Positions 13,044-48,013 of a DNA stretch of 64,000 bases are shown here, piece by piece. Location of the stretch: positions 558,001 through 622,000 of the forward strand of contig NZ_CP100446.1 of NCBI RefSeq assembly GCF_024227435.1. The letters are read 5' to 3'. Source of the stretch: Natrinema caseinilyticum (lineage in GTDB: Archaea > Halobacteriota > Halobacteria > Halobacteriales > Natrialbaceae). The position numbers and the translations under genes are program-made. The notes below the pieces were generated by a model, which was not told the DNA's origin, did not search any database, and saw only the letters and a list, made by a program, of their open reading frames with translations. The number at the start of each line of letters is the position of its first letter. Position 1 is the first letter of the stretch.

Positions 13044-14276
13044 ATGTATGAGTCTGACACGGTATGGGAGTTCGCGGTCGCCGATCACGTCAAGTTCGGG
13101 AACGGTGCGACGGAAGAACTGGGGGACGAGGTCGCGACTCGGAACGTCTCGAGCGTTCTGATCGTCACCGACGAACAGTTACGGGAAGCCGGCGTCGTCG
13201 ATACGGTCCGAGCGTCCGTCCCCGACGACGTCGACGTCGACGTGTTCGACGGAGTCGAACCGGACCCGGACGTCGACGTCTACGAATCGGCGATCGAGAC
13301 CGCAACGGAGATCGATCCCGACGGCATCGTCGGCGTTGGCGGGGGGAGTTCTCTCGACGTGGCGAAGGTGTCCGGGGCGCTCGCTCCGATGGACCGCGAC
13401 GTGCTCGAATACGTCGCGCCGCCGATCGGTAACGGGGTACCGGTCCCTGACTCTGAGACGCTCGTCTTCGCGATTCCGACCACCGCCGGCACCGGTTCGG
13501 AGAGTTCGCCCGCGGCGGTCGTTTCCCTGCCCGATCGGGAGCTCAAAGTAGGGATTTCCAGCCGTCACCTCTACCCCGATCTCGCGGTGGTCGATCCGCT
13601 TCTTACGGTGTCCCTTCCTCCAGCGGTCACTGCGTCCTCGGGAATGGACGCGCTCACGCACGCGATCGAGGCGTACACGACCCGTCGCTACGATGCGAAG
13701 GCGTCGCCCGACAGGGCCGGGGGGCGACCCGATTACGGCGGCCGGACCCAGGTGACCGATCTGTTCGCCGAGAAGGCCATCGAACTCATCGGCGCTAGCC
13801 TGCGACAGGCGGTCAACAACGGTTCCGACGTCGAGGCGCGACGCGATATGTCGCTCGGAAGCCTGTTGGCTGGGATCGCGTTCACCAACGCCGGCCTGGG
13901 GGCGACTCACGCGATGGCCTACCCGGTCGCCGGAGAGAACCACACCCCCCACGGCGTCACCGTGGCGGTTCTCCTCCCCGAAGTGATGCGATATAACGCT
14001 CCGGCGGTGGCCGACCGCTACGGGAAGATAGCGGAACTCCTCGGCGAACCCGTCGATGGGGCGAGCGATCGCGATGCCAGCGACCACGCCGCAGCCGCAG
14101 TCGAAACGTTGAGTTCGGACATCGGAATCCCGTCGGGGCTCGACGGGCTCGGCGTCGCAGAGGACGACGTCCCGCGTCTCGCCGAGAAAACGGCGGAGAT
14201 TCAGCGGCTGCTGGTCGGCAATCCGCGTCGTGTCTCGGAGGACGACCTCGAAGCGGTCTTCGCACAGGCTCTGTGA
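13044..14276 (+). CDS. Iron-containing alcohol dehydrogenase
   Basis: 410-residue group III (Fe-ADH) dehydrogenase. The NAD-binding loop is VGVGGGSSLDVAKV. The metal ligands of the family are all visible: Asp and His in GMDALTHAIEAY, and two His in THAMAYPVAGENHTPHG. An Asp/Gly-rich insertion (SPDRAGGRPDYGG) follows the first ligand pair, as in some 4-hydroxybutyrate or lactaldehyde dehydrogenase relatives. An A/T segment with TTAAGTAT about 30 bases before the ATG suggests its own leaderless promoter. It probably interconverts an alcohol or hydroxyacid and an aldehyde. Confidence 0.88.
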   Translation: MYESDTVWEFAVADHVKFGNGATEELGDEVATRNVSSVLIVTDEQLREAGVVDTVRASVPDDVDVDVFDGVEPDPDVDVYESAIETATEIDPDGIVGVGGGSSLDVAKVSGALAPMDRDVLEYVAPPIGNGVPVPDSETLVFAIPTTAGTGSESSPAAVVSLPDRELKVGISSRHLYPDLAVVDPLLTVSLPPAVTASSGMDALTHAIEAYTTRRYDAKASPDRAGGRPDYGGRTQVTDLFAEKAIELIGASLRQAVNNGSDVEARRDMSLGSLLAGIAFTNAGLGATHAMAYPVAGENHTPHGVTVAVLLPEVMRYNAPAVADRYGKIAELLGEPVDGASDRDASDHAAAAVETLSSDIGIPSGLDGLGVAEDDVPRLAEKTAEIQRLLVGNPRRVSEDDLEAVFAQAL

Positions 14277-18344: not shown

Positions 18345-18445
18345 GTCATAAAATTACCGGCAAGCGTCTGGGCCACCCGCCGGCGCGGGTGGCCTCCGTG
18401 GGTCGGGACCGAAGATCCCGCTTGCCTCAGGATTTATGATAATCG
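18345..18445. promoter_or_regulatory. Mirrored divergent promoter with two inverted CGCTTGCC boxes
   Basis: Each of the two diverging genes has the box CGCTTGCC followed within five or six bases by a TTTATGA-type TATA element. On the minus strand the box is at 18366-18359 and the TATA element at about 18353-18345. On the plus strand the box is at 18419-18426 and the TATA element at about 18433-18439. Box to ATG is 39 and 36 bases. Between the boxes lies the hairpin of 18371-18394. I read this as a shared operator pair for synthetase and thiolase (inference). Confidence 0.6.
18371..18394. repeat. Perfect 10-bp inverted repeat inside the divergent promoter
   Basis: GGCCACCCGC (18371-18380), loop CGGC, GCGGGTGGCC (18385-18394). 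It is nested inside the outer inverted repeat GGCAAGCG (18359-18366) / CGCTTGCC (18419-18426). A second small stem, CGGGA/TCCCG (18404-18408 and 18416-18420), partly overlaps the outer arm, so the segment can fold as a branched structure. Confidence 0.85.
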
Positions 18446-18462
18446 AACCCCAATCTCGGTGC

Positions 18463-19635
18463 ATGGTAGAACGAGCCATGGTTATCGGGGCCGGTATGAC
18501 GAAATTCGGCCCGCACGAGCAACCGTTACCGGAACTGTTCGCCGACGCCGCGCTGCCGGCGCTCGACGATGCCGGAATCGAACAAAATGAAATCGATGCC
18601 TTCTACCTCGGAAATACGCTGGGTGGGATGACGGAGAACGCGTCGCATCTCGCACCTGCGTTGGCGAGTCACATCGGCCTCCGCGGCGTCCCGTGTCAGC
18701 GGTTCGAGGACGCGTGTGCGACGTCCTCGAACGCGTTCAAACACGCCGTGCAAGCGGTCGAGAACGGCGTCCACGACGCGGTGCTGGTCGGGGGCGTCGA
18801 ACGGTGCACGCCGACGACTGGGAAAGAGACCGCCGAGATGACGAAGATTTTCGCGAGCGCGGCCCACCGGCAGTACGAGCAACCGACCGGGGTCACCTTC
18901 CCCGGAATCTTCGCGCTTCTCACGAAGCGGTACATGCACGAACACGGGACGACGTCCGAACAGTTGGCCGAGGTCGCGGTCAAGAACCAATACCACGGCA
19001 GTCTGAATCCCCGCGCCCACTTCGGGGAGGACGCGACCGTCGACGACGTGCTCGAGAGCCCCATTATCGCGGACCCGTTCCACCTCATGGACTGCTGTCC
19101 GTTCTCGGACGGCGCGTCCGCGGTCGTCGTCACGTCGCCGGATATCGCGGAAAGCTACGACGGAACCGGCGTGAGCGTCACCGGTCTCGGACACGCGACG
19201 GACATCGTGCCGATCGCCGACAAAGAGGGGCTGACGGAGACGAGAGCCGCACGCGATGCGGCGACGGAGGCGTACGAGCAAGCCGATATCGAGGCCGCCG
19301 ACGTCGACTTCGCCGAGGTCCACGACTGCTTTACCGGCGCGGAAGTGCTGGCGATCGAGGCGCTCGGCCTCGTCGGCGAGGGCGAAGGCGGAACCGCAGC
19401 GGAGACGGGACTCACAGCGCTCGGCGGCGAGATCCCGGTCAACCCGAGCGGCGGACTCAAGGCGAAGGGGCATCCGATCGGCGCGACGGGAACCGCGCAG
19501 ATCGTCGAGTTGACGGAGCAACTCCGCGGCGAGGCCGGTCAACGACAGGTCGGGGACGCGAAGACCGGAATCGCACACAACCTCGGCGGCGATACCGCCA
19601 CCACGTTCGTGACCGTCATGGAGGCCACAGCATGA
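18463..19635 (+). CDS. Thiolase family acyl-CoA acetyltransferase
   Basis: 390-residue archaeal/SCP-x-type thiolase. The acylated Cys is in EDACATSSNAF (about residue 88). A catalytic His is in NPSGGLKAKGHPIGATG, and VHDCFTGAE precedes it. The bacterial CxGGG element near the C-terminus is replaced by HNLGGDTATT, as in archaeal thiolases that work with a DUF35 partner. Start ATG 18463 fits the TTTATGATAATC box 24-30 bases upstream. The gene overlaps the DUF35 gene by four bases. Expected reaction: thiolytic cleavage (or synthesis) of a 3-oxoacyl-CoA. Confidence 0.9.
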   Translation: MVERAMVIGAGMTKFGPHEQPLPELFADAALPALDDAGIEQNEIDAFYLGNTLGGMTENASHLAPALASHIGLRGVPCQRFEDACATSSNAFKHAVQAVENGVHDAVLVGGVERCTPTTGKETAEMTKIFASAAHRQYEQPTGVTFPGIFALLTKRYMHEHGTTSEQLAEVAVKNQYHGSLNPRAHFGEDATVDDVLESPIIADPFHLMDCCPFSDGASAVVVTSPDIAESYDGTGVSVTGLGHATDIVPIADKEGLTETRAARDAATEAYEQADIEAADVDFAEVHDCFTGAEVLAIEALGLVGEGEGGTAAETGLTALGGEIPVNPSGGLKAKGHPIGATGTAQIVELTEQLRGEAGQRQVGDAKTGIAHNLGGDTATTFVTVMEATA

Positions 19636-20130: not shown

Positions 20131-21321
20131 ATGCCAACCGACTATCGATTTTCGTACGATCCGGGGACCATCGTCTACGGTCGAAACTGCGTCGAGCGAA
20201 TCAGCGACGAACTCAAGCGGATTGGGGTCGAGCGGGCGTTGATAGTCTGCGGATCGACGGTGGGTTCGGTCGACGAAGTCATCGGCCCCGTCGTCGATGG
20301 GACCGGCGATCGCCTCACGGACGTGTTCGACGAGACGACACCTGACAAACGATTGTCGACCGTTTTCGAAGGCGTCGAGCGAATGCGTGACGAGGAGGTC
20401 GATGCGCTCGTAAGTCTCGGTGGCGGAAGCAGTCTCGACATCGCAAAGGCGATGAGCGTCGTCGCGGCCAGCGACGCGTCTTCGGACGAGATCCGATCGA
20501 CGTTCGAGCGCGAGCGGACGGTTCCGATTCCGGAGACGGAGCTCACGCCGATCGCTGCGATACCGACAACGCTCGCGGGGTCGGACCTCTCCGCGGTGGC
20601 CGGTGTTACCGCTCGTGAGGGCGGACTCACTCGGGGTGCGCTCATCGACGATCGGCTGATGCCGAACGCGCTGTTCTACGACCCGGCGCTCTTCGAGACG
20701 ACGCCGCACGAGATCCTCTGTGCGTCGGCCATGAACGGGTTCGACAAGGCCGTCGAATCGCTGTACGTGCGCAACGCTACGCCGATAACGGACGGGACTG
20801 CGGTTCGGAGCCTGCGCCTTCTCGGCCGAGGCTTACCGCGGCTCGGCGACGGCGACCGGAGCGAGGAGACGCTAAACGACTCGATTATTGGAACTGTGCT
20901 CGCGCAGTACGGCGCGTTAGGCGCTGAGACGCTCACTCCGTCGGTCATCCACTCGTTCGGTCACGGTATCGCCCGCGGGTACGCGATCCAGCAGGGAGGG
21001 GCCCACGGGATAATCGCCCCCTACGCGCTCCGGCACCTGTTCGATACCGTCGACGGCCGCCGTAATCTCCTGGCCGAAGGTCTCGACGTCGACGAGGCGG
21101 ATACCGCCGAGGAAACCGCGAGCGCGGTCGTCGAAGCCGTCACGGCCGTGCGCGACGCGCTCGGTCTCCCGTCGCGGCTTCGGTCCATCGACGATCTGTA
21201 CGAGTCCGATTTGCCAGACGTCGCGGCCGACGTAGCGGATGACGTCATGATGGAGAACGCGCCCGAGGGATTCGAGCCGACCGAGGACGAGCTCGAGGCG
21301 GTGCTCCGCGACGCGTGGTGA
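20131..21321 (+). CDS. Fe-ADH-fold dehydrogenase with altered metal site
   Basis: 396-residue member of the dehydroquinate synthase/Fe-ADH superfamily. The cofactor loop is SLGGGSSLDIAKAM. The usual first metal-ligand motif DxxxH (as GMDALTHAIE) reads AMNGFDKAVES here, so Asp is Asn and His is Lys. The later His pair (HSFGHGIARGYAIQQGGAHG) is present. Asn at the first position is also found in maleylacetate reductases, so a reductase of that type, possibly metal-independent, is an alternative. It has its own promoter (ACATATATACCG about 30 bases upstream) after the DUF35 gene. The reaction is unknown. Confidence 0.82.
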   Translation: MPTDYRFSYDPGTIVYGRNCVERISDELKRIGVERALIVCGSTVGSVDEVIGPVVDGTGDRLTDVFDETTPDKRLSTVFEGVERMRDEEVDALVSLGGGSSLDIAKAMSVVAASDASSDEIRSTFERERTVPIPETELTPIAAIPTTLAGSDLSAVAGVTAREGGLTRGALIDDRLMPNALFYDPALFETTPHEILCASAMNGFDKAVESLYVRNATPITDGTAVRSLRLLGRGLPRLGDGDRSEETLNDSIIGTVLAQYGALGAETLTPSVIHSFGHGIARGYAIQQGGAHGIIAPYALRHLFDTVDGRRNLLAEGLDVDEADTAEETASAVVEAVTAVRDALGLPSRLRSIDDLYESDLPDVAADVADDVMMENAPEGFEPTEDELEAVLRDAW

Positions 21322-21339: not shown

Positions 21340-22548
21340 CTAGAAGGTCGGAAGCGGATCGAGTTCGTCCATCTCGACGTCCTCGTACGCGTCGCGGGCG
21401 ATCACGCGTTTGTGGACCTCGTCGGGACCGTCGACGATGCGGAACTGGCGAACGTTCTCGTAGAAGTCGGCGATGGGCAGGTCCTTGCCGATCCCGCTGG
21501 CCCCGCAGAACTGCAGGGCCGTATTGATCGCGTTTTCCGTGACGTTGGCGGTAAAGAACTTGCACATGGACACCTCGACGCGAGCCTGATTGCCGCGGGA
21601 GATCTCGTTGGCGGCGTGGCGGACCATCGTCCGTGCGGCGTGGAGGTTCGTCTCGGCTTCCGCGATGTCGAATCGGACTCCCTGTTTGTCGGCGACCGGC
21701 CCGCCGAATCCCTCGCGGTCGCTCGTGTACGCTTTCGCGACCTCCAGCGCTCGCGAAGCCATGCCCGAGTATCGCATACAGTGAGTGAGCCTCGCCGGAC
21801 CGAGACGTTTCTGTGCGATGGTGAATCCTTGCCCTTCCTCCCCCAGGAGGTTCTCCTCCGGAACGCGAACGTCCTCGTAGAGGACTTCCGAATGTACCAT
21901 TGACGTGATATCGTCGCCCATATGCGGGATGTCTCGCTTCACCTCGAGACCGGGCGTGTCTTCGGGGATAATGATGAGCGAGCAGCTCTCGTACGGGTGG
22001 CTCTCCTGATCGGTCCGGGCCAGCGTGATGAAGAAGTCCGCTTCGCTGCCGTTCGTGATCCACCACTTGTGTCCGTTGATCACCCACTCGTCCCCGTCTT
22101 TCTCTGCGGTGGTCTTGACCATCTTCGGGTCCGCACCACCCCCCTGACGGGGTTCCGTCATCGAGAACGCGGAGGTGAGTTCGCCACGGAGGAGCGGCTC
22201 GAGCCACCGCTCCTGTTGGTTTTCAGTGCCAGCGAGTTCGAGCGTGTGCATGTTGCCCTCGTCGGGAGCGTCGACGCGCATCGCCGGCGGAGCGAGGAGG
22301 CTCCGCCCTGCTTCCTCGAAAAGCGGGAGGACGTCCCGGAACTCGACGCCCATGCCGCCGTGTTCTTCGCCGATCTGGGGCGCGTACAGGTCCCGCTCTC
22401 GAGCCTCCTCGCGGAGGTCGGCGATGACGTCGTCGGGGACTTTCGTCCCACCCTCCAGTTCGCGCTCTCGGGGAATGACGACCTCGTCGACGAACGATCG
22501 TGCTCGCTGTGCTAGCTCCCTCGCTCGTTCGGAGTCTTGGTACTCCAT
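21340..22548 (-). CDS. Acyl-CoA dehydrogenase, ACAD10/ACAD11-like
   Basis: 402-residue FAD enzyme. It has the dehydrogenase motifs AFSMTEPRQGGGAD and WVINGHKWWITNG. Two features mark the ACAD10/11 branch: KRLGPARLTHCMRYSGMA in the second helical part, and VDGPDEVHKRVIAR, where the catalytic Glu of MCAD-type enzymes is Asp. In eukaryotic ACAD10/11 this domain is fused to a phosphotransferase domain; here a separate kinase gene lies at 24276. Start ATG 22548 is 27-37 bases after a TATA box (ATAAATATATG on the minus strand). A longer frame to 22704 runs through that promoter and was rejected. Confidence 0.88.
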   Translation of the reverse strand: MEYQDSERARELAQRARSFVDEVVIPRERELEGGTKVPDDVIADLREEARERDLYAPQIGEEHGGMGVEFRDVLPLFEEAGRSLLAPPAMRVDAPDEGNMHTLELAGTENQQERWLEPLLRGELTSAFSMTEPRQGGGADPKMVKTTAEKDGDEWVINGHKWWITNGSEADFFITLARTDQESHPYESCSLIIIPEDTPGLEVKRDIPHMGDDITSMVHSEVLYEDVRVPEENLLGEEGQGFTIAQKRLGPARLTHCMRYSGMASRALEVAKAYTSDREGFGGPVADKQGVRFDIAEAETNLHAARTMVRHAANEISRGNQARVEVSMCKFFTANVTENAINTALQFCGASGIGKDLPIADFYENVRQFRIVDGPDEVHKRVIARDAYEDVEMDELDPLPTF

Positions 22549-22597
22549 GCCTACACGCTTGACAGAAAGTGACATATATTTATCCCTGGGGAAGCCG

Positions 22598-22741
22598 CGA
22601 TCAGAGGTCATCGCGGTCGACTGGCTCGATACCGGCGCCGTCACCGATATCGTCGTATTCCTCGCGACCCGTCGGTCGGAGATGGACAGTCCCGAGTTTG
22701 TCACTGTTCCGGCCGACTCGACTCCGCTCGTCCGTCGCTGA
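22598..22741 (+). pseudogene. C-terminal remnant of an SDR
   Basis: The plus-strand frame ending at TGA 22739-22741 reads AVDWLDTGAVTDIVVFLATR and continues to TPLVRR. By eye it matches the last 42 residues of the SDR encoded at 44267-44995 (AVDRLEPEDVTDIVVFLATR ... PVVSH) at about 23 positions. No upstream part of an SDR is present; the frame begins in the promoter of the ACAD gene. It is the stump of a lost gene. Confidence 0.6.
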
Positions 22742-22795
22742 GCTGACGACGGTCGGCCGACCAGCGTCGATCAGGTCGTTCGCAGCGATCGCTGT

Positions 22796-23968
22796 TCAGA
22801 TAGCGTCGTTCTCTTCGAGTTCCGTCAGGCGATCTTCGGAGAGTACTCGTGAAAGGACGTCGTGCGTGTGTTCGCCGAACTCCGGTGCCGGCGAACGCAT
22901 ATCGTCGATATCGCTCGAGGACTTCGCCGGAAAGCCGACGTACGAGAAGGGGTCGCCGTCGCCGACGTCCATCTCGCGGACCATCTCTCGCGACTCGAGC
23001 TGTGGGTGTTCGAACACCTCGTCGAACTCGTTGACCGGGGCGAACATCGTCTCGTCCGAGAGATACTCCTCCCACTCGTCCCGTGTTCGGGTCTCGAATT
23101 CGGCCTGCAGTTCCTCGCGAGCGTACTCGGCGTCCGCTCCGGTCGCGAACTGGTATTCCGCCAGGTCCTCCCGTCCCAACTCCTCGAGCAACTGCTCCCA
23201 GAACTTGTCCTCGCGAGCTGCGATCGTCACGTACTCACCGTCTTTCGTCTCGTACACGTCGTAGCACGGCGCCGTCATGGCCGACGGCGATTGCTCGTCC
23301 TCGGGCACCTCCTCGCTCATGAACGCTCGCCAGCTCTGTCCGGTGCCAAGCGACGCGACGACGTCGGTCATCGACACGTCGAGATACTGGCCGCCGTTGC
23401 CGGCCTCGCGGTCCAAGAGCGCAGATGCGATCATGAACGCGCTGAACATTCCGCCGACTTTGTCTCCGATCTGGTAGGTTGGAACCGCCGGGAACGAACC
23501 GTCTTTCGAGACAGTGTCGTGCATCAAACCGGCTAAGCCGACGTAGTTGATGTCGTGGCCGACTCGGTCGCTGTACGGACCGTCCTGTCCGTACCCGGAC
23601 AGCGAACAGTAGACGATGTCTTCGTTCACCGCTCGAACATCGTCGTACCCGATGCCGAGCCGATCGACGACGCCCGGTCGGAACTGCTCGAAGACGACGT
23701 CCGCATCAGCGGCCAGTTCGAGGAACGCTTCCCGTCCTTCATCGCTTTTCAGATCAAGCGTGACGCTCTTCTTGTTCCGGTTGACCGAGTGGAAGAGCGC
23801 GCCCGAATCCGTGGGCTCGACCACCGGCTCGAGCCAACGGGCGTAGTCCCCTCGCGTCGGCTCTTCGATCTTGATCACTTCGGCGCCCATGTCGCCCAGC
23901 AGCATCGTTCCGTACGGACCGGGAAGCAGCCACGTCAGGTCGAGTACCGTGTAGTCCTCGAGATTCAT
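22796..23968 (-). CDS. Family III (CaiB/BaiF) CoA-transferase
   Basis: 390-residue CoA-transferase: moves CoA from one acyl-CoA to a free acid without ATP. The N-terminal signature is LDLTWLLPGPYGTMLLGDMG with EVIKIEEP after it. The catalytic Asp of the family lies in GHDINYVGLAGLM (about residue 143). It is followed on the same strand by the ACAD10/11-like gene, but that gene has its own promoter and the SDR stump lies between. It is divergent from the kinase gene. It could activate a hydroxyacid for the kinase/ACAD pair (inference). Confidence 0.9.
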   Translation of the reverse strand: MNLEDYTVLDLTWLLPGPYGTMLLGDMGAEVIKIEEPTRGDYARWLEPVVEPTDSGALFHSVNRNKKSVTLDLKSDEGREAFLELAADADVVFEQFRPGVVDRLGIGYDDVRAVNEDIVYCSLSGYGQDGPYSDRVGHDINYVGLAGLMHDTVSKDGSFPAVPTYQIGDKVGGMFSAFMIASALLDREAGNGGQYLDVSMTDVVASLGTGQSWRAFMSEEVPEDEQSPSAMTAPCYDVYETKDGEYVTIAAREDKFWEQLLEELGREDLAEYQFATGADAEYAREELQAEFETRTRDEWEEYLSDETMFAPVNEFDEVFEHPQLESREMVREMDVGDGDPFSYVGFPAKSSSDIDDMRSPAPEFGEHTHDVLSRVLSEDRLTELEENDAI

Positions 23969-24275
23969 GCGTCCCTCCCCCGGGATGTGAGTCGTTTCCG
24001 ATGGCTGGTCGTCGTCTCGGTACTCCGGACGGTTCGCTCCGATGAATGGCCGTTCGCTGGCTGTCGTGTCGCCATACCGATTGCAGAGTACGCATTCTCA
24101 TATGAAGATTTGGGGGCAACAACGGGGACCATCTCGCCCGCGTCGATTCGGATCGCCCGATCCGGGACCGCCGGTGCACCGGAATTCCGCACCCGTCGGG
24201 CGTTCGACGGCGGCAGGCTTCGGCGAACGGGGTTAAGATTAAACTGCCTCGGTAACGAGCATCGAAGGGACGACA
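23969..24275. other. Divergent intergenic region, CoA-transferase / kinase
   Basis: 307 bases between two diverging start codons. TTAAGATTAAACTG (about 24233-24246), 30-43 bases before the kinase ATG, is the likely plus-strand promoter. CATATGAAG and neighbouring A/T runs at 24080-24110 may serve the other side. Short ORFs here have no recognisable motif. Confidence 0.45.
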
Positions 24276-25331
24276 ATGGCCGAAAATGAAATATATCTCG
24301 AGCGACTCGTCAACGAAGCCGCATTGAAAGCGTATCTCGAGCGAGAGCTCGGCGACGCCAGATCCGTCTCCGTTCGGTACCACGACGAAGGACACTCGAA
24401 CGAGACGTTGTTCATCGAGTGGGGCGATCGAGAGCTCGTGATGCGCCGTCCACCCGCCGGAGAGACGGCCGACACGGCTCACGACGTCCTCCGAGAGTAT
24501 CGCGTCATCTCCGCTCTCGATGGGACGGACGTTCCGGTCCCGACGCCGGTGCTGGGCTGTGACGATGCGTCGGTGATCGGCGGCGAGTTCTATCTGATGG
24601 ACCGACTCGAGGGAGACGTTATCCGCGATCACGAACCCGAACGGTTCGCTAAGCCGGAACAGCGCCGCCGGATCAGCGAAACACTCATCGATACCCTCGC
24701 TGAGATTCACACGATCGACCCCGAAGCGGTCGGGCTTGGTGATCTCGGCCGACCCGAGGGGTACACAGAGCGGCAAATAGAGCGGTGGGGAAAGCAGTTC
24801 GACTGGGCCTACGAGACGACGAAATCCGAACGAGAGGTCCCCTACATCGAGGAGATCGACGAGTGGCTTGAGGCGAACGCTCCCGAGAAGTACGATCACA
24901 CCCTTGTTCACGGCGATTACAAGCTCGATAACGTTATGTACGCACCGAGGACGCCGCCGGAAATCAACGCCGTCTTGGACTGGGAGATGGGAACTCTCGG
25001 CGATCCGTCGGCAGATCTCGGCTGGATGCTCTGTTACTGGGATACCGATCCGTTGATCGACGAACTCATGCCGACGTTCCTCGGCCGTCCGGGGTATTTG
25101 AGCCGCGACGAACTCCTCGATCGGTACGAGCGACAATCCGGACTCGAATTCACGAACCGCCGGTTCTACGTCGGTCTCGGACTGTACATGCTAATCGCGG
25201 TGTGCGAGATGTTCTACGCTCGGTATCTCAACGGCAACAGCAACGATGACCTCTACCCGAAGATGGGATCGCTCGTACCGGAGATCAGTCAGCGGGCGAA
25301 GGAAGTGATCGACGGAGAGCGAGACATCTGA
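24276..25331 (+). CDS. APH-like phosphotransferase (ACAD10/11-kinase / LvaA type)
   Basis: 351-residue kinase of the aminoglycoside-phosphotransferase/choline-kinase fold. The catalytic loop is LVHGDYKLDNVM (HGDxxxxN) and the metal-binding DxD-equivalent is VLDWEMGTLGDPSADLGWML, a motif shared with the kinase domains of ACAD10/11 and of Pseudomonas LvaA. Those enzymes phosphorylate the 4-hydroxyl of 4-hydroxyacyl-CoA so that the partner dehydrogenase domain can remove phosphate. The presence of an ACAD10/11-like dehydrogenase 1.7 kb away supports this role. An antibiotic-resistance role is unlikely. Confidence 0.82.
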   Translation: MAENEIYLERLVNEAALKAYLERELGDARSVSVRYHDEGHSNETLFIEWGDRELVMRRPPAGETADTAHDVLREYRVISALDGTDVPVPTPVLGCDDASVIGGEFYLMDRLEGDVIRDHEPERFAKPEQRRRISETLIDTLAEIHTIDPEAVGLGDLGRPEGYTERQIERWGKQFDWAYETTKSEREVPYIEEIDEWLEANAPEKYDHTLVHGDYKLDNVMYAPRTPPEINAVLDWEMGTLGDPSADLGWMLCYWDTDPLIDELMPTFLGRPGYLSRDELLDRYERQSGLEFTNRRFYVGLGLYMLIAVCEMFYARYLNGNSNDDLYPKMGSLVPEISQRAKEVIDGERDI

Positions 25332-25493: not shown

Positions 25494-27467
25494 ATGAGCG
25501 AGTCACTAGCCGAACGTGTAGACGCTGTCACCGTCGTCGGTGCCGGAACAATGGGCCACGGTATCGCCCAGACGTTCGCGACCGCCGGATACGACGTCAC
25601 CATCGTCGACGTCGACGAGGAGATTCTGGAGACGGCGCTCGAGAAGATTGAGGGGAGCCTCGCTAAACTCGGCGAGGACCCCGACGCGGCGCTAGATCGA
25701 ATCGAAACGACGACGTCAGATGAGGAGGCCTACGGCGACGCCGACCTCGTCGTCGAAGCAGTCCCCGAGGATATCGATCTGAAAGCGGAGGTCTTCGCTA
25801 CCATCGACGACCTCGCACCGGACCGGGCGATACTGGCGACCAACACCAGTACGCTCCCGATCACCGAAATCGCGTCCGCGACGGATCGACCCGGTAACGT
25901 CGTCGGCATGCACTTCTCGAACCCGGTCCAGTTGATGGAAATCGTCGAAATCATCCGCGGCGAGGAGACCAGCGACGACGTGTTCGAGGCGGTCCAGGAA
26001 CTCAGCGAGGAGATCGGAAAGGCGCCGGTGCTCGTCGAGAAGGACATTCCCGGCTTCCTCATCAATCGAATCAACCTCCGATTCTGGCTCGAGGCCGTTC
26101 GACAGGTCGAACAGGGCATCCAGAATAAGGAGACGATCGACGCTGCGATCCGCCGGATCGGACTGCCGATGGGTCCGTTCGAGGTTCTCGATTTCAGCGG
26201 CATCGACGTCGCCACGATGGCTGCCCGTTCGATGCGTGACCGGGGTGTCGACTTGCACGTCCCAGACCTACTTGAGAAGAAGACGGACGCCGGCGACTAC
26301 GGGATGAAAACCGGCGACGGATTCTACACGTATCCGGAACCAGGGGAGTACTCGCGGGTCGACATTCCGCGCGAGCGGCGGCACGACTTCGATCCGAAAC
26401 ACCTCCTCGCGCCAGCCGTCAACGAGGCGGCGTGGTTGCTCGCCAACGACGTGACGACGAAGTCGGAGATCGACAAGGCGATGAAAATCGGAATGAACTG
26501 GCCGCGCGGGCTGCTCGAGTTCGCCGACGAACTCGGTATCGACCGACTCGTCGAGACGCTGGAAACGCTCCGCGAGCGGTCGGGATGGGAGGAGTACGAA
26601 CCCCATCCGCTGCTCCGCGAAATGGCCTCGAACGACGAGGTCGGTCAGAAATCGGGGATCGGCTTCTACGAGTGGGAGTACGAGCGGACGCAGTTCGAGA
26701 CGGTGCAGTACGAGCGACGCGAGGACCTCGCTTGGATCACCCTCGACAGACCCGACCAGCTCAACGCGCTCGACGAGCCGAGCTGGAAGGGATTGAACGC
26801 CGCCCTCGAGCGGGCAGCGAGAGACGAAGACGTCCGTGCGACGGTTCTCACGGGATCGGGACGGGCGTTCTGTGCCGGTGACGACATCGCAGAGATCCAG
26901 AGCTGGGAATCGGCAGACGACGCCGCGGAAATGGTAGACGAGGTCCTCGGGCCGACCGCCAAGACCCTCCGAAACCACCCCAAGCCGCTGATTGCGGCTG
27001 TCAACGGCGTAGCGAATGGAGGGGGCTGCGAACTCGTTTTGCTGAGCGACCTCGCCGTCGCTTCCGAGGGGAGCGACTTCGCCCTTCCCGAAGCGAAGAT
27101 CGGTGCGCTCCCGCCGATCGGCCTCACCTACGGGCGGATGAGTCTCGGAAAGAAAGACATCATGGAGCTTGCACTAACCGGTGACCAGCTGACCGCGTCC
27201 GAGGCCGAATCGATGGGGATCGTCAACTACGTGGTCGGCGACGAACAGGTGGCAGACGTCGCTCACGAACTCGCTCGTTCGACGACGGCATCAGCGCCGG
27301 GCTCCGTCGCGGAGATGAAGGACCTGTGGACGGGGATGGAAGACGATCTCCTCGACGCGTGGTTCGGTGACGCGCTGGACCGCCTCGTCGAGCGAACTCA
27401 GTCGGCGGAAGCCAGCGAGGGGCTCGCGGCATTCCTTGAGAAGCGCGATCCGGACTGGCAGCGGTAA
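25494..27467 (+). CDS. Fused 3-hydroxyacyl-CoA dehydrogenase / enoyl-CoA hydratase
   Basis: 657-residue bifunctional beta-oxidation enzyme. Residues about 10-390 form the 3-hydroxyacyl-CoA dehydrogenase: NAD motif VVGAGTMGHGIAQTF, catalytic His in GMHFSNPVQLME, and the C-terminal HAD domain with its repeat (GDYGMKTGDGFYTYP, then VGQKSGIGFYEW). Residues about 400-657 are a crotonase domain with FCAGDDIAEI and NGVANGGGCEL. The order HAD-ECH is the reverse of bacterial FadB/FadJ and is that of archaeal fusion enzymes, such as the crotonyl-CoA hydratase/3-hydroxybutyryl-CoA dehydrogenase of Sulfolobales. The loop after the second Glu position (PEAKIGALPPIGLTYG) is not canonical. Confidence 0.92.
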   Translation: MSESLAERVDAVTVVGAGTMGHGIAQTFATAGYDVTIVDVDEEILETALEKIEGSLAKLGEDPDAALDRIETTTSDEEAYGDADLVVEAVPEDIDLKAEVFATIDDLAPDRAILATNTSTLPITEIASATDRPGNVVGMHFSNPVQLMEIVEIIRGEETSDDVFEAVQELSEEIGKAPVLVEKDIPGFLINRINLRFWLEAVRQVEQGIQNKETIDAAIRRIGLPMGPFEVLDFSGIDVATMAARSMRDRGVDLHVPDLLEKKTDAGDYGMKTGDGFYTYPEPGEYSRVDIPRERRHDFDPKHLLAPAVNEAAWLLANDVTTKSEIDKAMKIGMNWPRGLLEFADELGIDRLVETLETLRERSGWEEYEPHPLLREMASNDEVGQKSGIGFYEWEYERTQFETVQYERREDLAWITLDRPDQLNALDEPSWKGLNAALERAARDEDVRATVLTGSGRAFCAGDDIAEIQSWESADDAAEMVDEVLGPTAKTLRNHPKPLIAAVNGVANGGGCELVLLSDLAVASEGSDFALPEAKIGALPPIGLTYGRMSLGKKDIMELALTGDQLTASEAESMGIVNYVVGDEQVADVAHELARSTTASAPGSVAEMKDLWTGMEDDLLDAWFGDALDRLVERTQSAEASEGLAAFLEKRDPDWQR

Positions 27468-28608: not shown

Positions 28609-29373
28609 TTACGAGTACGACAAGTTCACCTGAATGACGTTCGCAGTCTCGAGGATCCGGTCCGCGCACTCTTCGCTGAGAACCGTCTCGGTGAGACGAT
28701 TGGCAGGCCCGTAGATGCCGACCGCAGCGGTGACGGTGTCGACGCCGGTCTGGACCGGGGCTCCGACGCCGCGCATCCCCTCGAAGCGTTCCTCGTCGTC
28801 GATCGCGTACCCCTTCTCCCGAATTCGTTTTAATTCGTCGGACAGTTCGTCGGACTCCGTGATCGTGTGTTCGGTCTTCGGTGCCAGACCGTACCGATCG
28901 ACGATCTCACAGACCCGGTCCTCGGAGAGTTGTGCGAGAATCGCTTTCCCACATGCGGTCGTACTGAGTCGCGTTTTCGTTCCAGGGTGTGTTCGCTGGA
29001 TGTGTATGTTCGAACTCTTGTCCCCCTTTTTCATTCCGAGGATAACGCCAAGCCCGTCCTCTTCGACCATTAGGACGGCGTACTCGCCCGTTTCTCTCGC
29101 AAGCGATTTGAGCTCGGGCTCGGCAACCCTGTACACGTCGTACTGACTGCGAACGTGATTGCCCACTTCGAGAAACATCGACGCCACTGTGTACGTACCG
29201 TCAGACAGTTCGACTACGTATCCGAGCGATTCGAGCGTGGTGAGGTAGTCGTAGGTAGAGCTCAACGGCATATCGAGCTGTTCGGAGACTTCCGTCACCG
29301 ATGCTCGATCGAGGTCGAGAAGCGCCCTAATTAACCGATCGGCCCGCTCCACCGACTTCACCGTGCTTGCCAT
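28609..29373 (-). CDS. IclR family transcriptional regulator
   Basis: 254 residues: N-terminal winged helix-turn-helix (DRASVTEVSEQLDMPLSSTY) and a C-terminal GAF-like effector domain (about residues 80-250, with TTACGKAILAQLSE and AIDDEERFEGMRGVGAPV). Haloarchaeal IclR proteins regulate catabolic and sugar genes. Effectors are usually small acids or aromatic compounds. It is the first gene of a minus-strand pair with the luciferase-like enzyme. An inverted-repeat-like site at 29410-29421 just upstream of its promoter may be its operator. Confidence 0.9.
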   Translation of the reverse strand: MASTVKSVERADRLIRALLDLDRASVTEVSEQLDMPLSSTYDYLTTLESLGYVVELSDGTYTVASMFLEVGNHVRSQYDVYRVAEPELKSLARETGEYAVLMVEEDGLGVILGMKKGDKSSNIHIQRTHPGTKTRLSTTACGKAILAQLSEDRVCEIVDRYGLAPKTEHTITESDELSDELKRIREKGYAIDDEERFEGMRGVGAPVQTGVDTVTAAVGIYGPANRLTETVLSEECADRILETANVIQVNLSYS

Positions 29374-37533: not shown

Positions 37534-38310
37534 CTATCCACGTATGTATCCGCCGTTGACGCTCAGGGTCTGTCCCGTGATCCAGTCAGCTGCATCGCTC
37601 GCGAGGAACGCGACCGCATCGGCAATGTCGGTTGGCTGGCCGAGCCGATCCAGAGCGTAGGAGTTCTCAATCATCTGTTCGCGGTACTGGTCGACCACGT
37701 CCTGGGTCGCGGGCGTCTCCGTCGTCCCGGGCGAGACGCAGTTCACGCGGACGCCCTCGTCGCCGATTTCGTGGGCAACGGTGCTCGTCAGCGAGACGTT
37801 AGCCGCCTTCGCGGCCCCGTACACCGCCAGTCCGGGATCGTTCCCCTTGTAGGAGTCGCTGGCAAAGTTGACAATCGCACCCGATCCCTGATCGATCATC
37901 TGCGGGAGGGCCGCGTGCATGCAGTTCATCGTTCCGAAAAAGCAGACGCCCACCCAGAACGCCCATTCGTCGGGTTCCGTCTCGACAAATGGTTTCGCCT
38001 CCGTTAGCCCGGCGTTGTTCACGAGCACATCGAGACGACCGAACTCGTCGATGGTCGTCTCGACGAGGTTCTGCGCATCCTCATACTCGGTGACGTCCGT
38101 CTCGATGGCTTCGATGGACGCGTCATACTCCTCGGCGACCTCTCGTGCGGTTTCCTCGGCCGAATCGATCGCGACGTCGGCGATAACCACGTCGGCACCG
38201 AGTCCGGCGAACGTCTCAGCAATACCACGCCCGATTCCCTGTGCGCCGCCCGTAACGACGGCCACCTGTCTGTCGAAGTCTATCTTCTCACTGGTCGTCG
38301 TACCTGTCAT
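37534..38310 (-). CDS. Short-chain dehydrogenase/reductase
   Basis: 258-residue classical SDR. The cofactor loop is TGGAQGIGRGIAE, then VNNAG at about residue 95, the Ser in VNFASDSYKGND and the Tyr-Lys pair in VYGAAKAANV. The C-terminus is SVNGGYIRG, common in 3-oxoacyl reductases and 3-hydroxyacyl-CoA dehydrogenases. An Asp after the second beta strand (VIADVAIDS) favours NAD over NADP. ATG 38310 is preferred to the upstream codon at 38337. It is divergent from the enoyl-CoA hydratase at 38625, so it probably catalyses the next beta-oxidation step. Confidence 0.88.
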   Translation of the reverse strand: MTGTTTSEKIDFDRQVAVVTGGAQGIGRGIAETFAGLGADVVIADVAIDSAEETAREVAEEYDASIEAIETDVTEYEDAQNLVETTIDEFGRLDVLVNNAGLTEAKPFVETEPDEWAFWVGVCFFGTMNCMHAALPQMIDQGSGAIVNFASDSYKGNDPGLAVYGAAKAANVSLTSTVAHEIGDEGVRVNCVSPGTTETPATQDVVDQYREQMIENSYALDRLGQPTDIADAVAFLASDAADWITGQTLSVNGGYIRG

Positions 38311-38624
38311 GGCTACTAAAACAATTCTAATCACCATGATAAAAGTTTCGGCGGGCGGTGAGAAAGCCGGTCAACGGCAGCAGCTTCGGCTCTCACGTCG
38401 ACGCCGCGCTACTGCGGTTCGTATGAGGGATGGCCGATTTGGTAGTGATGGGTCGAGACGGCACTGACGGTAACTCTCCCGGATGGCTCGACGCCGCGAC
38501 CGTCTCGTTCGTCTGTGTTCGCTGTCCGGATTTCGCGATGAGGACGATAGCCGGCAAATCGGAATCGCCGTCACGTAATCCGACGAATAATTATTTATGC
38601 GTTTATCAATAGGATCCACACTGC

Positions 38625-39413
38625 ATGGTTACGGAGTACGAAGACATCGACCTGCGTCTCGAGGACGACGGCCGAGCGGAGATACGACTAGATAGACCGG
38701 AGTCCATGAACGCGCTCAGCGACCGGATGGCCGACGAGATACTCGAGGCACTGGATCGACTCGAGGACGAAGACGTACGGGTGCTCGTCATCAAGGGCAC
38801 CGAGGGGAACTTCTGTGCCGGCGCGGACGTCGGGTCGCCTCCGGCTGAAACGAAACCCCACGAGCAGACTCGTCGGTTCCGCGGACTCCGGCGGATGTTC
38901 AACCGGCTGGAAAGCTTCCCGCGCCCGACGGTCGCCGCTATCGAGGGCTACTGCCTCGGCGGGGGATGTGAGATCGCCTGCTGTTGCGATACTCGCGTCG
39001 CCGCCGAGAGCGCGACGATCGGCGTCCCCGAGATCATGCTCGGCGTCATCCCTGCCGGTGGCGGTACCCAGCGACTTTCACGACTCATCGGCCTCTCGCG
39101 AGCGCGAGACATGGTCCTCCGCGGGAAACACCACGATGCCGAGACGATGCGAGACTACGGGTTCGTCCACGAATTGGCCGACGACGACGAGTTCGAGACC
39201 GTACTCCAGGAGATAGTCGAAGAGTACCTGATTCGTCCGCCGGTCGCCATGGAGATGGCGAAGCTAACGATGAATGGCGGCTACGAGGCCGCTCTCGAGT
39301 CAGGGCTCGAGATGGAAGCGCTCGCGACCGGCGTCGTGTTCGGCACCGATGACGCACAGGAGGGTCTGGAGGCGTTTCGCGAGGATCGCGACCCAGATTT
39401 CGGAGGCGAGTGA
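38625..39413 (+). CDS. Enoyl-CoA hydratase
   Basis: 262-residue crotonase with the complete signature: FCAGADV oxyanion loop, IEGYCLGGGCEI (first Glu), VPEIMLGVIPAGGGTQRL (second Glu and loop). The A/T box AATAATTATTTATG lies about 25-38 bases upstream, so the mRNA is probably leaderless. It precedes an acyl-CoA dehydrogenase gene on the same strand by 150 bases, forming a beta-oxidation pair. Confidence 0.9.
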   Translation: MVTEYEDIDLRLEDDGRAEIRLDRPESMNALSDRMADEILEALDRLEDEDVRVLVIKGTEGNFCAGADVGSPPAETKPHEQTRRFRGLRRMFNRLESFPRPTVAAIEGYCLGGGCEIACCCDTRVAAESATIGVPEIMLGVIPAGGGTQRLSRLIGLSRARDMVLRGKHHDAETMRDYGFVHELADDDEFETVLQEIVEEYLIRPPVAMEMAKLTMNGGYEAALESGLEMEALATGVVFGTDDAQEGLEAFREDRDPDFGGE

Positions 39414-39565
39414 CGAGAGCGATCAGCGCCTTCGTCGCCAGTTCGATCTGTGAGCGTGAAGTAGACACCCTGTTCCGGCCGCTGCTCGGGTCGAGGTGGG
39501 TGCTGCGATGCATTGCAAGTGAATCTTTACCTAGACTTATTAGCCGCGACCTCAATTTTCAAGGT

Positions 39566-40792
39566 ATGCGCTCCGATCGCAACTTCGAGGAGTACCGCGA
39601 ATCGATGCTCGATTACCTGTGGAACGAGATCGAACCCCACGCCGAAGAGTGGGCCGAGACGGGCGACCTCCCACGGGAGGAACTGTGGGACGAATGGGAC
39701 GAGATCGGCTTTCTCGGCGCGATGGCCCCCGAGGAGTACGGCGGACTCGACCTGACCCAGCAGGAGTACGTCCAACTCGAGAAGGAGTGGGCGAAAGTGT
39801 CCGGCGGACTTCGGGTCATCCTCCACGTTCACAACACGAACACTGTCCTGCTGGACCACGTCGGGACCGAGGCGCAGAAGGAACGGTGGATACCTGAGAT
39901 CGTCGACGAGGGGGCGTCGTTCGCGTTCGCGCTGACCGAGCCCCACGCGGGTTCCGGGACGGATATCAAGACCCACGCGGAGAAGGACGGCGACAAATAC
40001 GTCCTGAACGGCGAGAAACACCACATCACGAACGCCGACTTCACGGAGTACTTCAACGTAATCACTCGAACGGAAAACGGCTTCTCTATTCTGGTCGTCC
40101 CCCGGGATGCCAACGGATTCACGATCCGAGAGATGCCCGAAACGATGGGGAGTCACGGCTCGGAACACTGCTATCTCCACTTCGACGACGTTCGCGTCCC
40201 CGAAGAGAACCTGCTCGGTCGCGAGGAGGGAAGTGGTGTTCGAGACGCGGTTAACCACCTTCGCGTGAGCCGTATCTACATCGGTGCGAACGCGTTAGGT
40301 ATCTCCGAGCGGTGTCTGGAGGAAGCGGTCACCTGGGCGAAAAAGCGAGTTACGTTCGGCAAACCGATCGCCGAACGGCAGGCCGTCCAGCAGTACCTCG
40401 GCGAGATGGCCCGCGATGTCTACGCGCTGCGCCTCGCCGTCGAGGACGCCGCACGGAAAGTTGATGAGAACGGGCGGGCGGGAATCGAGGCCGACCTCTG
40501 TAAGCTCATGGCCAAGGACGTCACGCAACAAGTCACCGACAACGCGATGCTCGTGTTCGGCGGACTCGGCTACTATCGAGAGGCACCCATCCAGCGGTTC
40601 TACCGCGACGCTCGCCTCAACTGGCTCGAGGAAGGGACCCCCTCGATCCAGCAGATAACCGCTGCGAAGAACCTCCTGAACGGCGAATACCCGTACGAAC
40701 TCGATGAACAGGCGGTCGCTCATCTCGACCACCCGATCGACGACTACAATCCCGAGGGTGGCGACGAGTACAAACTGTCGTACGAACTATAA
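39566..40792 (+). CDS. Acyl-CoA dehydrogenase
   Basis: 408-residue FAD-dependent dehydrogenase. It shows FALTEPHAGSGTDIKTHAEK, YVLNGEKHHITNA, the FAD-contact segment RVTFGKPIAERQAVQ and the catalytic Glu in WLEEGTPSIQQI. Family membership is clear; chain-length preference is not. Start ATG 39566 was chosen because an A/T-rich TTTACCTAGACTTATTAG lies about 25-42 bases upstream; the longer frame starts inside the preceding hydratase. No electron-transfer flavoprotein gene is in the window, so electrons must go to an ETF encoded elsewhere. Confidence 0.9.
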   Translation: MRSDRNFEEYRESMLDYLWNEIEPHAEEWAETGDLPREELWDEWDEIGFLGAMAPEEYGGLDLTQQEYVQLEKEWAKVSGGLRVILHVHNTNTVLLDHVGTEAQKERWIPEIVDEGASFAFALTEPHAGSGTDIKTHAEKDGDKYVLNGEKHHITNADFTEYFNVITRTENGFSILVVPRDANGFTIREMPETMGSHGSEHCYLHFDDVRVPEENLLGREEGSGVRDAVNHLRVSRIYIGANALGISERCLEEAVTWAKKRVTFGKPIAERQAVQQYLGEMARDVYALRLAVEDAARKVDENGRAGIEADLCKLMAKDVTQQVTDNAMLVFGGLGYYREAPIQRFYRDARLNWLEEGTPSIQQITAAKNLLNGEYPYELDEQAVAHLDHPIDDYNPEGGDEYKLSYEL

Positions 40793-41153
40793 ATTGTGGG
40801 TGACCGACGGTCGTCGCCGCCGTCAGATTCGATCGCGTAAAACGGGCCGCTCGTTCACTGTCGGACCGTCAGCGACGTTCGCAATCACCATACCCTCGGC
40901 CAGTCAGTATGGAGAACGGGACAGGTGACATCGATGAGAGCACGTCGACGGAAGCGTGCCGTCGAACGTGCGACCACCTCGGCTGGCCCGGTCATCGAGC
41001 CCTGAATGGAGAACCTATCCAGCCGTGTCTCGCCAGTCGTAAACAAACTGGCGCGGAATACTGCCCGTTCGGTCATCGTATTTCTCTCCTCGAGCGCCTA
41101 CGTGTTAATAACCCCTAAATGTTTAATAGGGTATTGATGAACCAGAATATGTC
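40793..41153. other. Intergenic region with promoter of the PaaK-like ligase
   Basis: 361 bases. The right end carries GTTTAATAGG (41121-41130), 24-33 bases before ATG 41154, as a TATA box. It is overlapped by an imperfect dyad, ACCCCTA (41111-41117) / TAGGGT (41127-41132), a possible operator. The rest has no recognisable gene. Confidence 0.45.
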
Positions 41154-42497
41154 ATGGGAGAATCAGCGGCTACTGACGCGTTCAATCCCGAACGCGAGTC
41201 CATGGAACGAGACGAGATCGAGAACCGGCAAGAGCGGATGCTCCGAGAAAAGGTAGAGCACGCGTACGAGAACACGAGCCACTACCGAGAGGTGTTCGAC
41301 GAAGCGGACCTCGCTCCGTCGGACATCAAGACGATCAATGACTACCAGCGCCTCGTGCCTACGATGCTCAAGGAAGATGTCCGGGACAATCGTTCGGTCG
41401 ACGATCCCTTCGGGGGCTTCCTCGCCGTCGACCGGGACGAACTCGACTACCTCCACACCTCGACCGGGACGACCGGGACGCCGACGTTCATGCCGGTTCA
41501 GGAAGAGGAAGTGAGCGCAGCCGGCGAACTCATCGCACGAACGCTGTACCAGAGTGGCCTCGAGGAGGGTGACGTCGCCCTCAACGCCGGACTGTACTAC
41601 CACCTCTACAGCCGGATGATCGAGAACGCATACAGCGAGCACCTCGGCATGACCCACTTCAACCGCGGTGGACTCCCGTTCGAGATCGAGAGCGATCTGG
41701 AGAACGTCGAACTGTGGAAGATGGCCGATCCGGCTATCATAAACATGACTCACTCCTCGCTACAGAAGGCGACGGCGCTCCTGCAGGAACACGACGTCGA
41801 ACCCAGCGACGCGTTCCCGGACCTGAAAGCGGTCGTCACCGCCGGTGCGGTCGTCACCGGGACCGCGCGGCAGGAACTCGAGGACTTCTGGGGCGTCCCG
41901 CTCATCGAGCACGGCGGCCCGACCGATCAGATGTCGTTCATGGGAACGTTCTGCGAAGCACGGACCGAGGGATGGGGCCACTTCTTCGAGGATCAGGGAT
42001 TCCACGAAATACTCGACCTCGACACCCTCGAACCGGTGGCCGAGGGCGAACGCGGCGAACACACCTACACCACTTTCCACCTCGATAGCACGCCGTACCT
42101 CCGATGGCGTTCGGAAGACGCCGGCGTCCACGGCGGCTACGACTGCTCCTGTGGCCGCTGTCACATGCGAACGCAGATCCTCGGTCGGACCGTCCAGGAG
42201 GTAAACGTTCAGGGAACCTCGGTGTTCCCGCGTGATTTCGAGGGGGTCCGGGACGATCACGGCTATCCCGAATCACCCTACCAGCTCGTGCGTCGATCCG
42301 CGCAACCGCAGGACCTCCTTAAGATGCTGTTCTCGGCCGACATTTCCGACGAGGAGCGTGACTCGATCGTCGCTGATCTCGCCGAAACCCTCGATCTCGA
42401 GGAGGCTGCCGTCGATCTCGGTCAAATCGACGAGGAGGATATCCCGATGAAGGGAGAGTGGAAGTACGAACTCATCCGGGAAAAGGACGAGGAATGA
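41154..42497 (+). CDS. PaaK-like (phenylacetate-CoA-ligase family) acyl-CoA ligase
   Basis: 447-residue aryl-CoA ligase family member, activating an acid with ATP and CoA. The N-terminal YENTSHYREVFDEADL is typical of PaaK. The phosphate loop is intact (STGTTGTPTFMP), followed by HGGPTDQMSF in place of the YGxTE motif. A Cys-rich CSCGRCHMR element precedes ILGRTVQEV; comparable cysteines occur in several PaaK-type proteins. It is the first gene of a run with DUF35 and thiolase. Substrate is unknown; PaaK relatives activate aromatic and also non-aromatic acids. Confidence 0.85.
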   Translation: MGESAATDAFNPERESMERDEIENRQERMLREKVEHAYENTSHYREVFDEADLAPSDIKTINDYQRLVPTMLKEDVRDNRSVDDPFGGFLAVDRDELDYLHTSTGTTGTPTFMPVQEEEVSAAGELIARTLYQSGLEEGDVALNAGLYYHLYSRMIENAYSEHLGMTHFNRGGLPFEIESDLENVELWKMADPAIINMTHSSLQKATALLQEHDVEPSDAFPDLKAVVTAGAVVTGTARQELEDFWGVPLIEHGGPTDQMSFMGTFCEARTEGWGHFFEDQGFHEILDLDTLEPVAEGERGEHTYTTFHLDSTPYLRWRSEDAGVHGGYDCSCGRCHMRTQILGRTVQEVNVQGTSVFPRDFEGVRDDHGYPESPYQLVRRSAQPQDLLKMLFSADISDEERDSIVADLAETLDLEEAAVDLGQIDEEDIPMKGEWKYELIREKDEE

Positions 42498-42596
42498 GGG
42501 CAGGCCACACGGTCGCTGCGTCGAATCGGCTTCAAACAACGGTCTGAGAGCTCCACCGTCCGAAATGCTTAACATCGGAGCGGTGGTCGTTAGCCT

Positions 42597-43034
42597 ATGT
42601 CACGGGTACACCCAGAGTACGACGAGTCGCGGCGACTCGTCGACGGATCGATACGGACCGCCGATGACGGCGACCCGGTCCTCGTCGGTACAGAGTGCGC
42701 GGAGTGCGGGTTCGTCGTCTTCCCGACGAGACCGTTTTGCCGGAACTGCCTCTCGGAAAACGTCGACGATATCGATCTCTCGCGGAACGGTGAACTACGG
42801 ACCTACACCGTCGCACACACCGGGCAGGAAGGGTTCGAGCCGCCGTATGCGTTCGGTTTCGTCGATCTCCCGGAAGGGGTCCGACTCTACTCCCTGCTCA
42901 AGGGGTGGGAATCGGGGACCCTCGAAGTCGGAGCACCGGTTGAGTTGACGCTCGACGAGATCAAGCCGGATCCGAAAACAGGTGAACCGCTGTTTGGCCA
43001 CGTGTTCCGTCTCGTGGAGGGTGACGATGACTGA
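42597..43034 (+). CDS. Zn-ribbon/OB-fold DUF35 protein, thiolase partner
   Basis: 145-residue protein: zinc ribbon CAECGFVVFPTRPFCRNC (about residues 32-49), then an OB fold (ELRTYTVAHTG, GFVDLPEGVRLYSLL, GAPVELTLDE). It overlaps the thiolase gene (thiolase ATG 43027, its own stop 43032-43034), so the two proteins are coupled in translation. Gene order is DUF35-thiolase, opposite to the pair at 18.5-20 kb. Confidence 0.87.
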   Translation: MSRVHPEYDESRRLVDGSIRTADDGDPVLVGTECAECGFVVFPTRPFCRNCLSENVDDIDLSRNGELRTYTVAHTGQEGFEPPYAFGFVDLPEGVRLYSLLKGWESGTLEVGAPVELTLDEIKPDPKTGEPLFGHVFRLVEGDDD

Positions 43035-44202: not shown

Positions 44203-44266
44203 GTCTGGACCGTTCTCAGCCGTCGATTCATACGATCGGCCGAAATAACGGAGGAGGGATCGACGC

Positions 44267-44995
44267 TCAGTGAGAGACGACGGGGATGGAACCGGGTGGC
44301 ACTGCGACGACTTCCGGCACGTATACGTTCGGGGGACGGGTGGCGAGGAATACGACGATATCGGTGACGTCCTCCGGTTCGAGTCGGTCGACCGCTGCAA
44401 TGTCGTCTGTCATTTCGGTTGCCACCTGCCCAGGGCAGACGGCGCTCACCCGAACGGGGGTGTCTTTCAGCTCCTTCGCTAGCGTGTTCGTCAGCCCCTG
44501 GATCCCGCGTTTCGACGCGCCGTACGCGCTCGTTCCGGCGAAGCCGACTTTTCCCGTGAGCGAACTCATATTGACGATGGTTCCCGCTTCGCGCTCTAGC
44601 ATTCCACCTGTGAGCGCCTCCCGGCAACACCGGAACACGCCGTTGAGGTTCACGTCGAGCACCGTCTCCCACTCGTCGTCAGTGAGTTCCCAGAGGTTAC
44701 CGTCGGCGGTGGTCCCCGCGTTATTCACGAGGAGGTCCACCTGCTCGAATTCTTCGCGGGTTCGATCGAATAGCGCCGTCACGTCGTCCGTCGAGGTCAC
44801 GTCCGTGGGAGCCGCAACGGCCTCGCTCCCTCGGTCACGGATGGTTTCAGCCACCCGACCGATTTCGTTCTCGCTGCGGGCTGCGAGAACGACGTTCATA
44901 CCTTCTTTGGCCAGTCCGAGAGCGACACTTCGTCCGATGCCGCGACCGGCACCCGTGACGACCGCCGTCCGTTCGTCCAGATCCGTCGCTGTCAT
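44267..44995 (-). CDS. Short-chain dehydrogenase/reductase (FabG-like)
   Basis: 242-residue SDR: TGAGRGIGRSVALG, NNAGTTADG, MSSLTGKVG and YGASKRGIQG (Tyr-x3-Lys). The C-terminus departs from the usual SDR end and reads VTDIVVFLATRPPNVYVPEV, then PVVSH. The same unusual end is found in the stump at 22.6 kb. The start overlaps the stop of the second PaaK-like gene by four bases, so the two are one operon. It is convergent with the thiolase; a 3-hydroxyacyl-CoA dehydrogenase role is plausible. Confidence 0.88.
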   Translation of the reverse strand: MTATDLDERTAVVTGAGRGIGRSVALGLAKEGMNVVLAARSENEIGRVAETIRDRGSEAVAAPTDVTSTDDVTALFDRTREEFEQVDLLVNNAGTTADGNLWELTDDEWETVLDVNLNGVFRCCREALTGGMLEREAGTIVNMSSLTGKVGFAGTSAYGASKRGIQGLTNTLAKELKDTPVRVSAVCPGQVATEMTDDIAAVDRLEPEDVTDIVVFLATRPPNVYVPEVVAVPPGSIPVVSH

Positions 44996-47965: not shown

Positions 47966-48013
47966 AGTCTCGGGAGAACTAGCCACGGTATTAGTCGTTT
48001 GGGTCGGCCTGTC

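Follow-up and report, generated by a model that had tools for sequence, protein, structure and literature searches.

A haloarchaeal kinase and acyl-CoA dehydrogenase pair predicted to bring 4-hydroxyacyl-CoAs into β-oxidation

In animals and in Pseudomonas, 4-hydroxy fatty acids are broken down by a kinase together with an unusual acyl-CoA dehydrogenase (ACAD). The chemistry of this ACAD10/11–Lva system is already known and appears to be undescribed in Archaea. Structural work published in 2025 found that ACAD10/11 and LvaC have R626, H634, R637, and D753, the catalytic Asp, in common and that R631 is conserved across ACADs (PMC12440821); the numbering of the deposited ACAD11 chain is one lower than that used in the paper. 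The window analyzed here (the whole stretch of 64,000 nucleotides) is part of a 715-kb contig in a haloarchaeal genome totaling 4.77 Mb and contains a kinase gene and an ACAD gene that, judged from their sequences, form a well-supported candidate for an archaeal member of this known system. These genes very probably represent a two-enzyme bypass that would bring 4-hydroxyacyl-CoAs into β-oxidation. The open reading frames of both genes were found where an initial annotation of this DNA had placed them, although it gave no strand for the dehydrogenase; the two genes are divergent and, as also claimed, are separated by a CoA-transferase gene. The relevant features are as follows:

18436–19635, plus strand: SCP2-type thiolase (NF004720, 7.9e-129), possibly responsible for terminal thiolysis
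20131–21321, plus strand: iron-containing alcohol dehydrogenase (PF00465, 2.3e-31), possible 4-oxo/4-hydroxy acid oxidoreductase; next to the ACAD gene and convergent with it
21340–22548, minus strand: predicted 4-phosphoacyl-CoA-eliminating acyl-CoA dehydrogenase of the LvaC/ACAD10/11 clade, 402 aa (Acyl-CoA_dh_1, 1e-38)
21430–21432, minus strand: dehydrogenase catalytic Asp373, equivalent of ACAD11 Asp753, replacing Glu
21772–21807, minus strand: predicted phosphate-binding motif RLGPARLTHCMR (dehydrogenase residues 248–259), with the equivalents of ACAD11 R626, R631, H634, and R637
22796–23968, minus strand: family III CoA-transferase (PF02515, CoA_transf_3, 1.5e-108), possible activation step
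24276–25331, plus strand: predicted 4-hydroxyacyl-CoA kinase (APH fold, ACAD10/11-type), 351 aa (Pfam APH, 1.6e-48)
24915–24917, plus strand: kinase catalytic Asp214 in HGDYKLDN, equivalent of ACAD11 D220
25494–27467, plus strand: 3-hydroxyacyl-CoA dehydrogenase–enoyl-CoA hydratase fusion (3HAD-ECH), downstream β-oxidation
28609–29373, minus strand: IclR-family regulator (PF01614, 8.3e-31), perhaps of the island
37534–51798, no strand assigned: further conserved part of a catabolic island, encoding proteins 69–91% identical to proteins near the pair on a Halomarina PSR21 plasmid

All motifs quoted in the initial annotation were found in the window proteins, including LVHGDYKLDNVM at kinase residues 210–221, VLDWEMGTLGDPSADLGWML at kinase residues 233–252, and VDGPDEVH, whose Asp is dehydrogenase residue 373; the motif and Pfam matches of the pair are not due to chance. 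The "fused HAD-ECH" reported after the kinase is present as a fusion, in which HAD stands for 3-hydroxyacyl-CoA dehydrogenase.

Alignment of the window ACAD with mouse ACAD11 placed Asp373 on Asp753, the Asp that stands for the usual ACAD Glu, bearing out the earlier claim that the catalytic Glu had been replaced. The window ACAD also retains the equivalents of R626, R631, H634, R637, and D753, including the HCMR motif. The same residues are retained in each of the 35 further haloarchaeal proteins that the alignment drew from other genomes, in two of four paralogues in the window's own genome (C1:3689790 and C1:2754204), and in the LvaC of a real lva operon; ordinary ACADs do not have the full set. 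Four more haloarchaeal plasmid copies, from named species, retained the motif. The subtype in the window ACAD, PARLTHCMR, is that of LvaC, while ACAD11 has PGRIHHCMR; the PDB matches of this protein were 4hr3 and ACAD11. A dehydrogenase phylogeny, proposed earlier as a check, was constructed with 13 ordinary ACADs as the outgroup. In this tree, the ACAD10/11–LvaC group, with all haloarchaeal members, was split from the ordinary ACADs with an SH-aLRT of 100, placing the window enzyme with LvaC/ACAD11; the haloarchaeal ACADs formed one clade (100), which joined the LvaC/Thermus type at 90.

By sequence, the window kinase most resembles ACAD11-type kinases; its closest named relative is from Halomarina halobia PSR21. 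In the PDB it matched ACAD11 and ACAD11-like kinases (E 5e-48 to 2e-68), the nearest entries being 9o56, 3dxp, and ACAD11 8v3u/8v3v, and its fold is clear from these solved relatives. Compared to ACAD11, it retains the catalytic Asp and Asn, an Arg aligned with R176, and an Arg beside the αC Glu; the latter was taken in place of R86 of PMC12440821, which is not an Arg in the chain numbering. LvaA presents Gln and Leu at the two positions where the archaeal kinase has its CoA-contacting Arg residues. Haloarchaeal kinases formed one clade (99/100) that joined the ACAD11 type at 89/84, with joining to the LvaA type not rejected (AU p = 0.113). An antibiotic-resistance kinase was considered and rejected, as antibiotic kinases scored only 0.0045 or worse in the PDB search, and no choline kinase was found among the PDB matches even at E 10; the sequence-based outcomes that the initial annotation had named as refuting its reading, for the kinase and for the dehydrogenase, did not arise. 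The label "LvaA-type" used there is a loose one: the ACAD carries the LvaC motif subtype, but the kinase appears nearer the ACAD11 type, and LvaB is absent. Because the ACADs join the LvaC/Thermus type and the kinases probably join the ACAD11 type, the archaeal system looks, by sequence, like a mosaic of an LvaC-like eliminase and an ACAD11-like kinase.

Among 194 haloarchaeal genomes, the kinase (E at most 1e-60) and the ACAD (E at most 1e-90) were each found in 95, and the two sets of genomes were identical, with zero exceptions. Independence would give a log10 p of about -57, a value that is overstated, as the genomes are related and are not independent samples. Exact co-occurrence is a matter of where the score cut-off is set; genomes lacking the ACAD do contain kinases of a different subfamily with weaker scores (E 1e-35 to 1e-47). 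Another ACAD from the window's own genome was uninformative as a control, being found only inside the 95 genomes, and PF00441 was used instead; by this control 183 of the 194 genomes have some ACAD, and 88 genomes therefore have ACADs but neither gene of the pair. Both states were present inside each of 12 genera (counted by hand); the kinase and the ACAD have therefore been gained or lost as a pair more than once. The two genes lie within 15 kb of each other in 57 of the 95 genomes, including 39 divergent pairs with <400 bp between them. Outside the order, a 295-genome sample of the phylum yielded no match. LvaB (DUF6285, PF19802) was found neither in the window's own genome nor in any of the 194 haloarchaeal genomes, in a search whose control gave matches in two of 14 control genomes. 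This distribution, with about half of the genomes carrying both genes and the rest neither, suggests a degradation route as yet undescribed in Archaea.

In a comparison of 48 stretches, the genes that recurred alongside the pair encoded an SDR, a small HTH regulator, acyl-CoA ligases, and a fusion of the 3HAD-ECH type. On plasmid pHME132 of Haloferax mediterranei, the order is ligase, ACAD, HTH, 3HAD-ECH, kinase, divergent ACAD, HAD hydrolase, and SDR. We do not claim the HAD hydrolase as a counterpart of the ACAD10 HAD domain, as it occurs in 9 of the 48 stretches and matches general HAD families. H. mediterranei grows on levulinic acid at 0.097 per hour with 0.6 g/L (PMC12455835). This organism is used to make bioplastics from acids such as levulinate, and its pair, E6P09_RS18925 and RS18920, provides named candidate genes for its growth on this compound. 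The initial annotation knew of no archaeal description of the route, and we likewise found, in the open-licence literature, no paper assigning enzymes for levulinate growth in archaea, nor any biochemical study of an archaeal kinase or ACAD of this type. In six haloarchaeal loci, a protein with a sirtuin-like motif, TGAGVSTASGIP, is encoded directly downstream of the ACAD (L107:6275-7030, L113:6460-7266, L122:6622-7371, L123:6239-7051, L124:6204-6983, and L141:8412-9161). Several bacterial pairs have a histidine phosphatase family gene after the kinase or after its DUF6285 partner (L081:8442-9095, L087:9904-10602, L093:8357-9070, and L096:6421-7134); this phosphatase might remove stalled phospho-intermediates.

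The window's own genome encodes three kinases and five ACADs of this clade, one of the kinases being in the window. A chromosomal kinase (C1:1404189) and its accompanying SDR, 3HAD-ECH, and HTH share 70–75% identity with the H. mediterranei cluster; for the chromosomal ACAD C1:3689790, the figure is 70%. From these identities, the chromosomal set is likely orthologous to that of H. mediterranei. The window set is inside a larger catabolic island whose content is conserved but rearranged on the Halomarina PSR21 plasmid, with orthologues of the CoA-transferase (82%) and the IclR-family regulator (60%). The part at 37534–51798 encodes SDRs, an ECH, two ordinary ACADs, a thiolase with an OB-fold protein, AMP-binding proteins, a thermosome-like protein, and an SSF symporter. 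The Halomarina PSR21 island also encodes the thermosome (group II chaperonin)-like protein (46379–47965), at 69% identity. Two of the AMP-binding-family proteins (41154–42497 and 44992–46230) are divergent and short (about 410–450 aa) and match the domain partly; both are conserved in Halomarina PSR21. Two paralogous ACADs, C1:1074688-1075917 (L037:6689-7921) and C2:646096-647322 (L039:8097-9329), present RSMQ instead of HCMR and have lost the phosphate-binding His and Arg. They are 83% identical to each other; across 80 further genomes from the family, no protein exceeds 61% identity to them. One of the two is clustered with its own kinase. Tentatively, haloarchaea may have diversified the pair into several substrate-specific versions, among which the RSMQ paralogues may carry out a different elimination.

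We modeled the mechanism on the work on mammalian ACAD10/11 (PMC12440821). The kinase would transfer phosphate from ATP onto the 4-hydroxyl of a 4-hydroxyacyl-CoA, and the dehydrogenase would hold the resulting 4-phosphoacyl-CoA through its Arg/His/Arg pocket; the catalytic Asp would take the α proton, and a redox-neutral FAD-dependent cycle would expel phosphate to yield a 2-enoyl-CoA, for which the hydratase/3-hydroxyacyl-CoA dehydrogenase fusion and thiolases would complete ordinary β-oxidation. The CoA-transferase could activate the 4-hydroxyacid, and the iron alcohol dehydrogenases (Fe-ADHs) could form the 4-hydroxy group; 4-hydroxyvalerate as the substrate and activation by the CoA-transferase are guesses. 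What supports this scheme is homology, residue conservation, the position in the trees, strict co-occurrence, and the pairing of the genes; from these we infer for the archaeal pair the reactions and the substrate, as well as what the CoA-transferase and the alcohol dehydrogenases do.

An ordinary acyl-CoA dehydrogenase feeding ETF, next to a kinase for an unrelated small molecule, would be compatible with the many substrates of APH-fold kinases and with the separate, divergent arrangement of the window genes. However, the HCMR motif and the catalytic Asp, the co-occurrence in 95 of 95 genomes, and the remoteness of the kinase from antibiotic and choline kinases make this explanation highly improbable. 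Within the preferred phospho-elimination reading, the balance tips slightly toward the window pair being a specialized paralogue for a 4-hydroxyacid other than 4-hydroxyvalerate (e.g., a longer, branched, or cyclic one), with the chromosomal set handling levulinate-type substrates. The window set is more distant from H. mediterranei (kinase 59%, ACAD 63%, and 3HAD 36%) than the chromosomal set and has its own island, also conserved in Halomarina PSR21, which encodes thiolases and transporters in addition to two ordinary ACADs and several AMP-binding enzymes; its 4-hydroxyacid therefore need not be 4-hydroxyvalerate. However, genomic context cannot fix the substrate, and the mammalian enzymes take a range of chain lengths (PMC12440821). 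It is possible, though rather doubtful, that the window pair assimilates levulinate-like 4-oxoacids with an Fe-ADH replacing the SDR LvaD. An SDR recurs by the pair elsewhere, and the window has two Fe-ADH genes (13044–14276 and 20131–21321), the former somewhat resembling 4-hydroxybutyrate dehydrogenase (E 2.3e-69) without reaching the curated cut-off. However, Fe-ADHs are broad, the best NCBIfam match of 13044–14276 is lactaldehyde reductase, with no match reaching its cut-off, and neither Fe-ADH was matched by a gene in the Halomarina stretch used for comparison.

With the haloarchaeal pair, whose kinase set manages without LvaB, the ACAD10/11–Lva route would extend to Archaea. As in the Pseudomonas lva operon (LvaA/LvaB kinase, LvaC, LvaD, and LvaE), the kinase and ACAD genes are separate, the ACAD has the PARLTHCMR motif and the Asp, and, in H. 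mediterranei, a ligase and an SDR adjoin the pair. However, none of the 194 haloarchaeal genomes has LvaB (DUF6285), the two CoA-contacting Arg residues kept by the archaeal kinase are missing from LvaA, and the window ACAD and kinase are only 37% and 28% identical to LvaC and LvaA, respectively. Animal ACAD10/ACAD11 share with the haloarchaeal pair a kinase of apparently the same subtype, which works without LvaB, and the same phosphate-binding residues and catalytic Asp, but are single fused polypeptides; both window enzymes are about 35% identical to ACAD11, which has the PGRIHHCMR type of motif. The description of the genes as "split" holds for this locus, although bacteria, too, normally encode the two enzymes separately. 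The bacterial sequences compared here came from plasmid entries, one of them a Pseudomonas aeruginosa plasmid with a real lva operon; plasmids of Deinococcus, Azospirillum, Streptomyces, Chelatococcus, and Pseudosulfitobacter carry split ACAD10/11-like pairs without DUF6285 nearby, and orthologues of such a pair from Burkholderia pseudomallei have been assayed (PMC11342911). In these bacterial pairs the kinase and ACAD genes are likewise adjacent or near-adjacent, often with an SDR, but were co-directional and not divergent in those seen, and the haloarchaeal ACADs form a clade of their own. The haloarchaeal pair would represent another LvaB-free split system for dissecting phospho-elimination.
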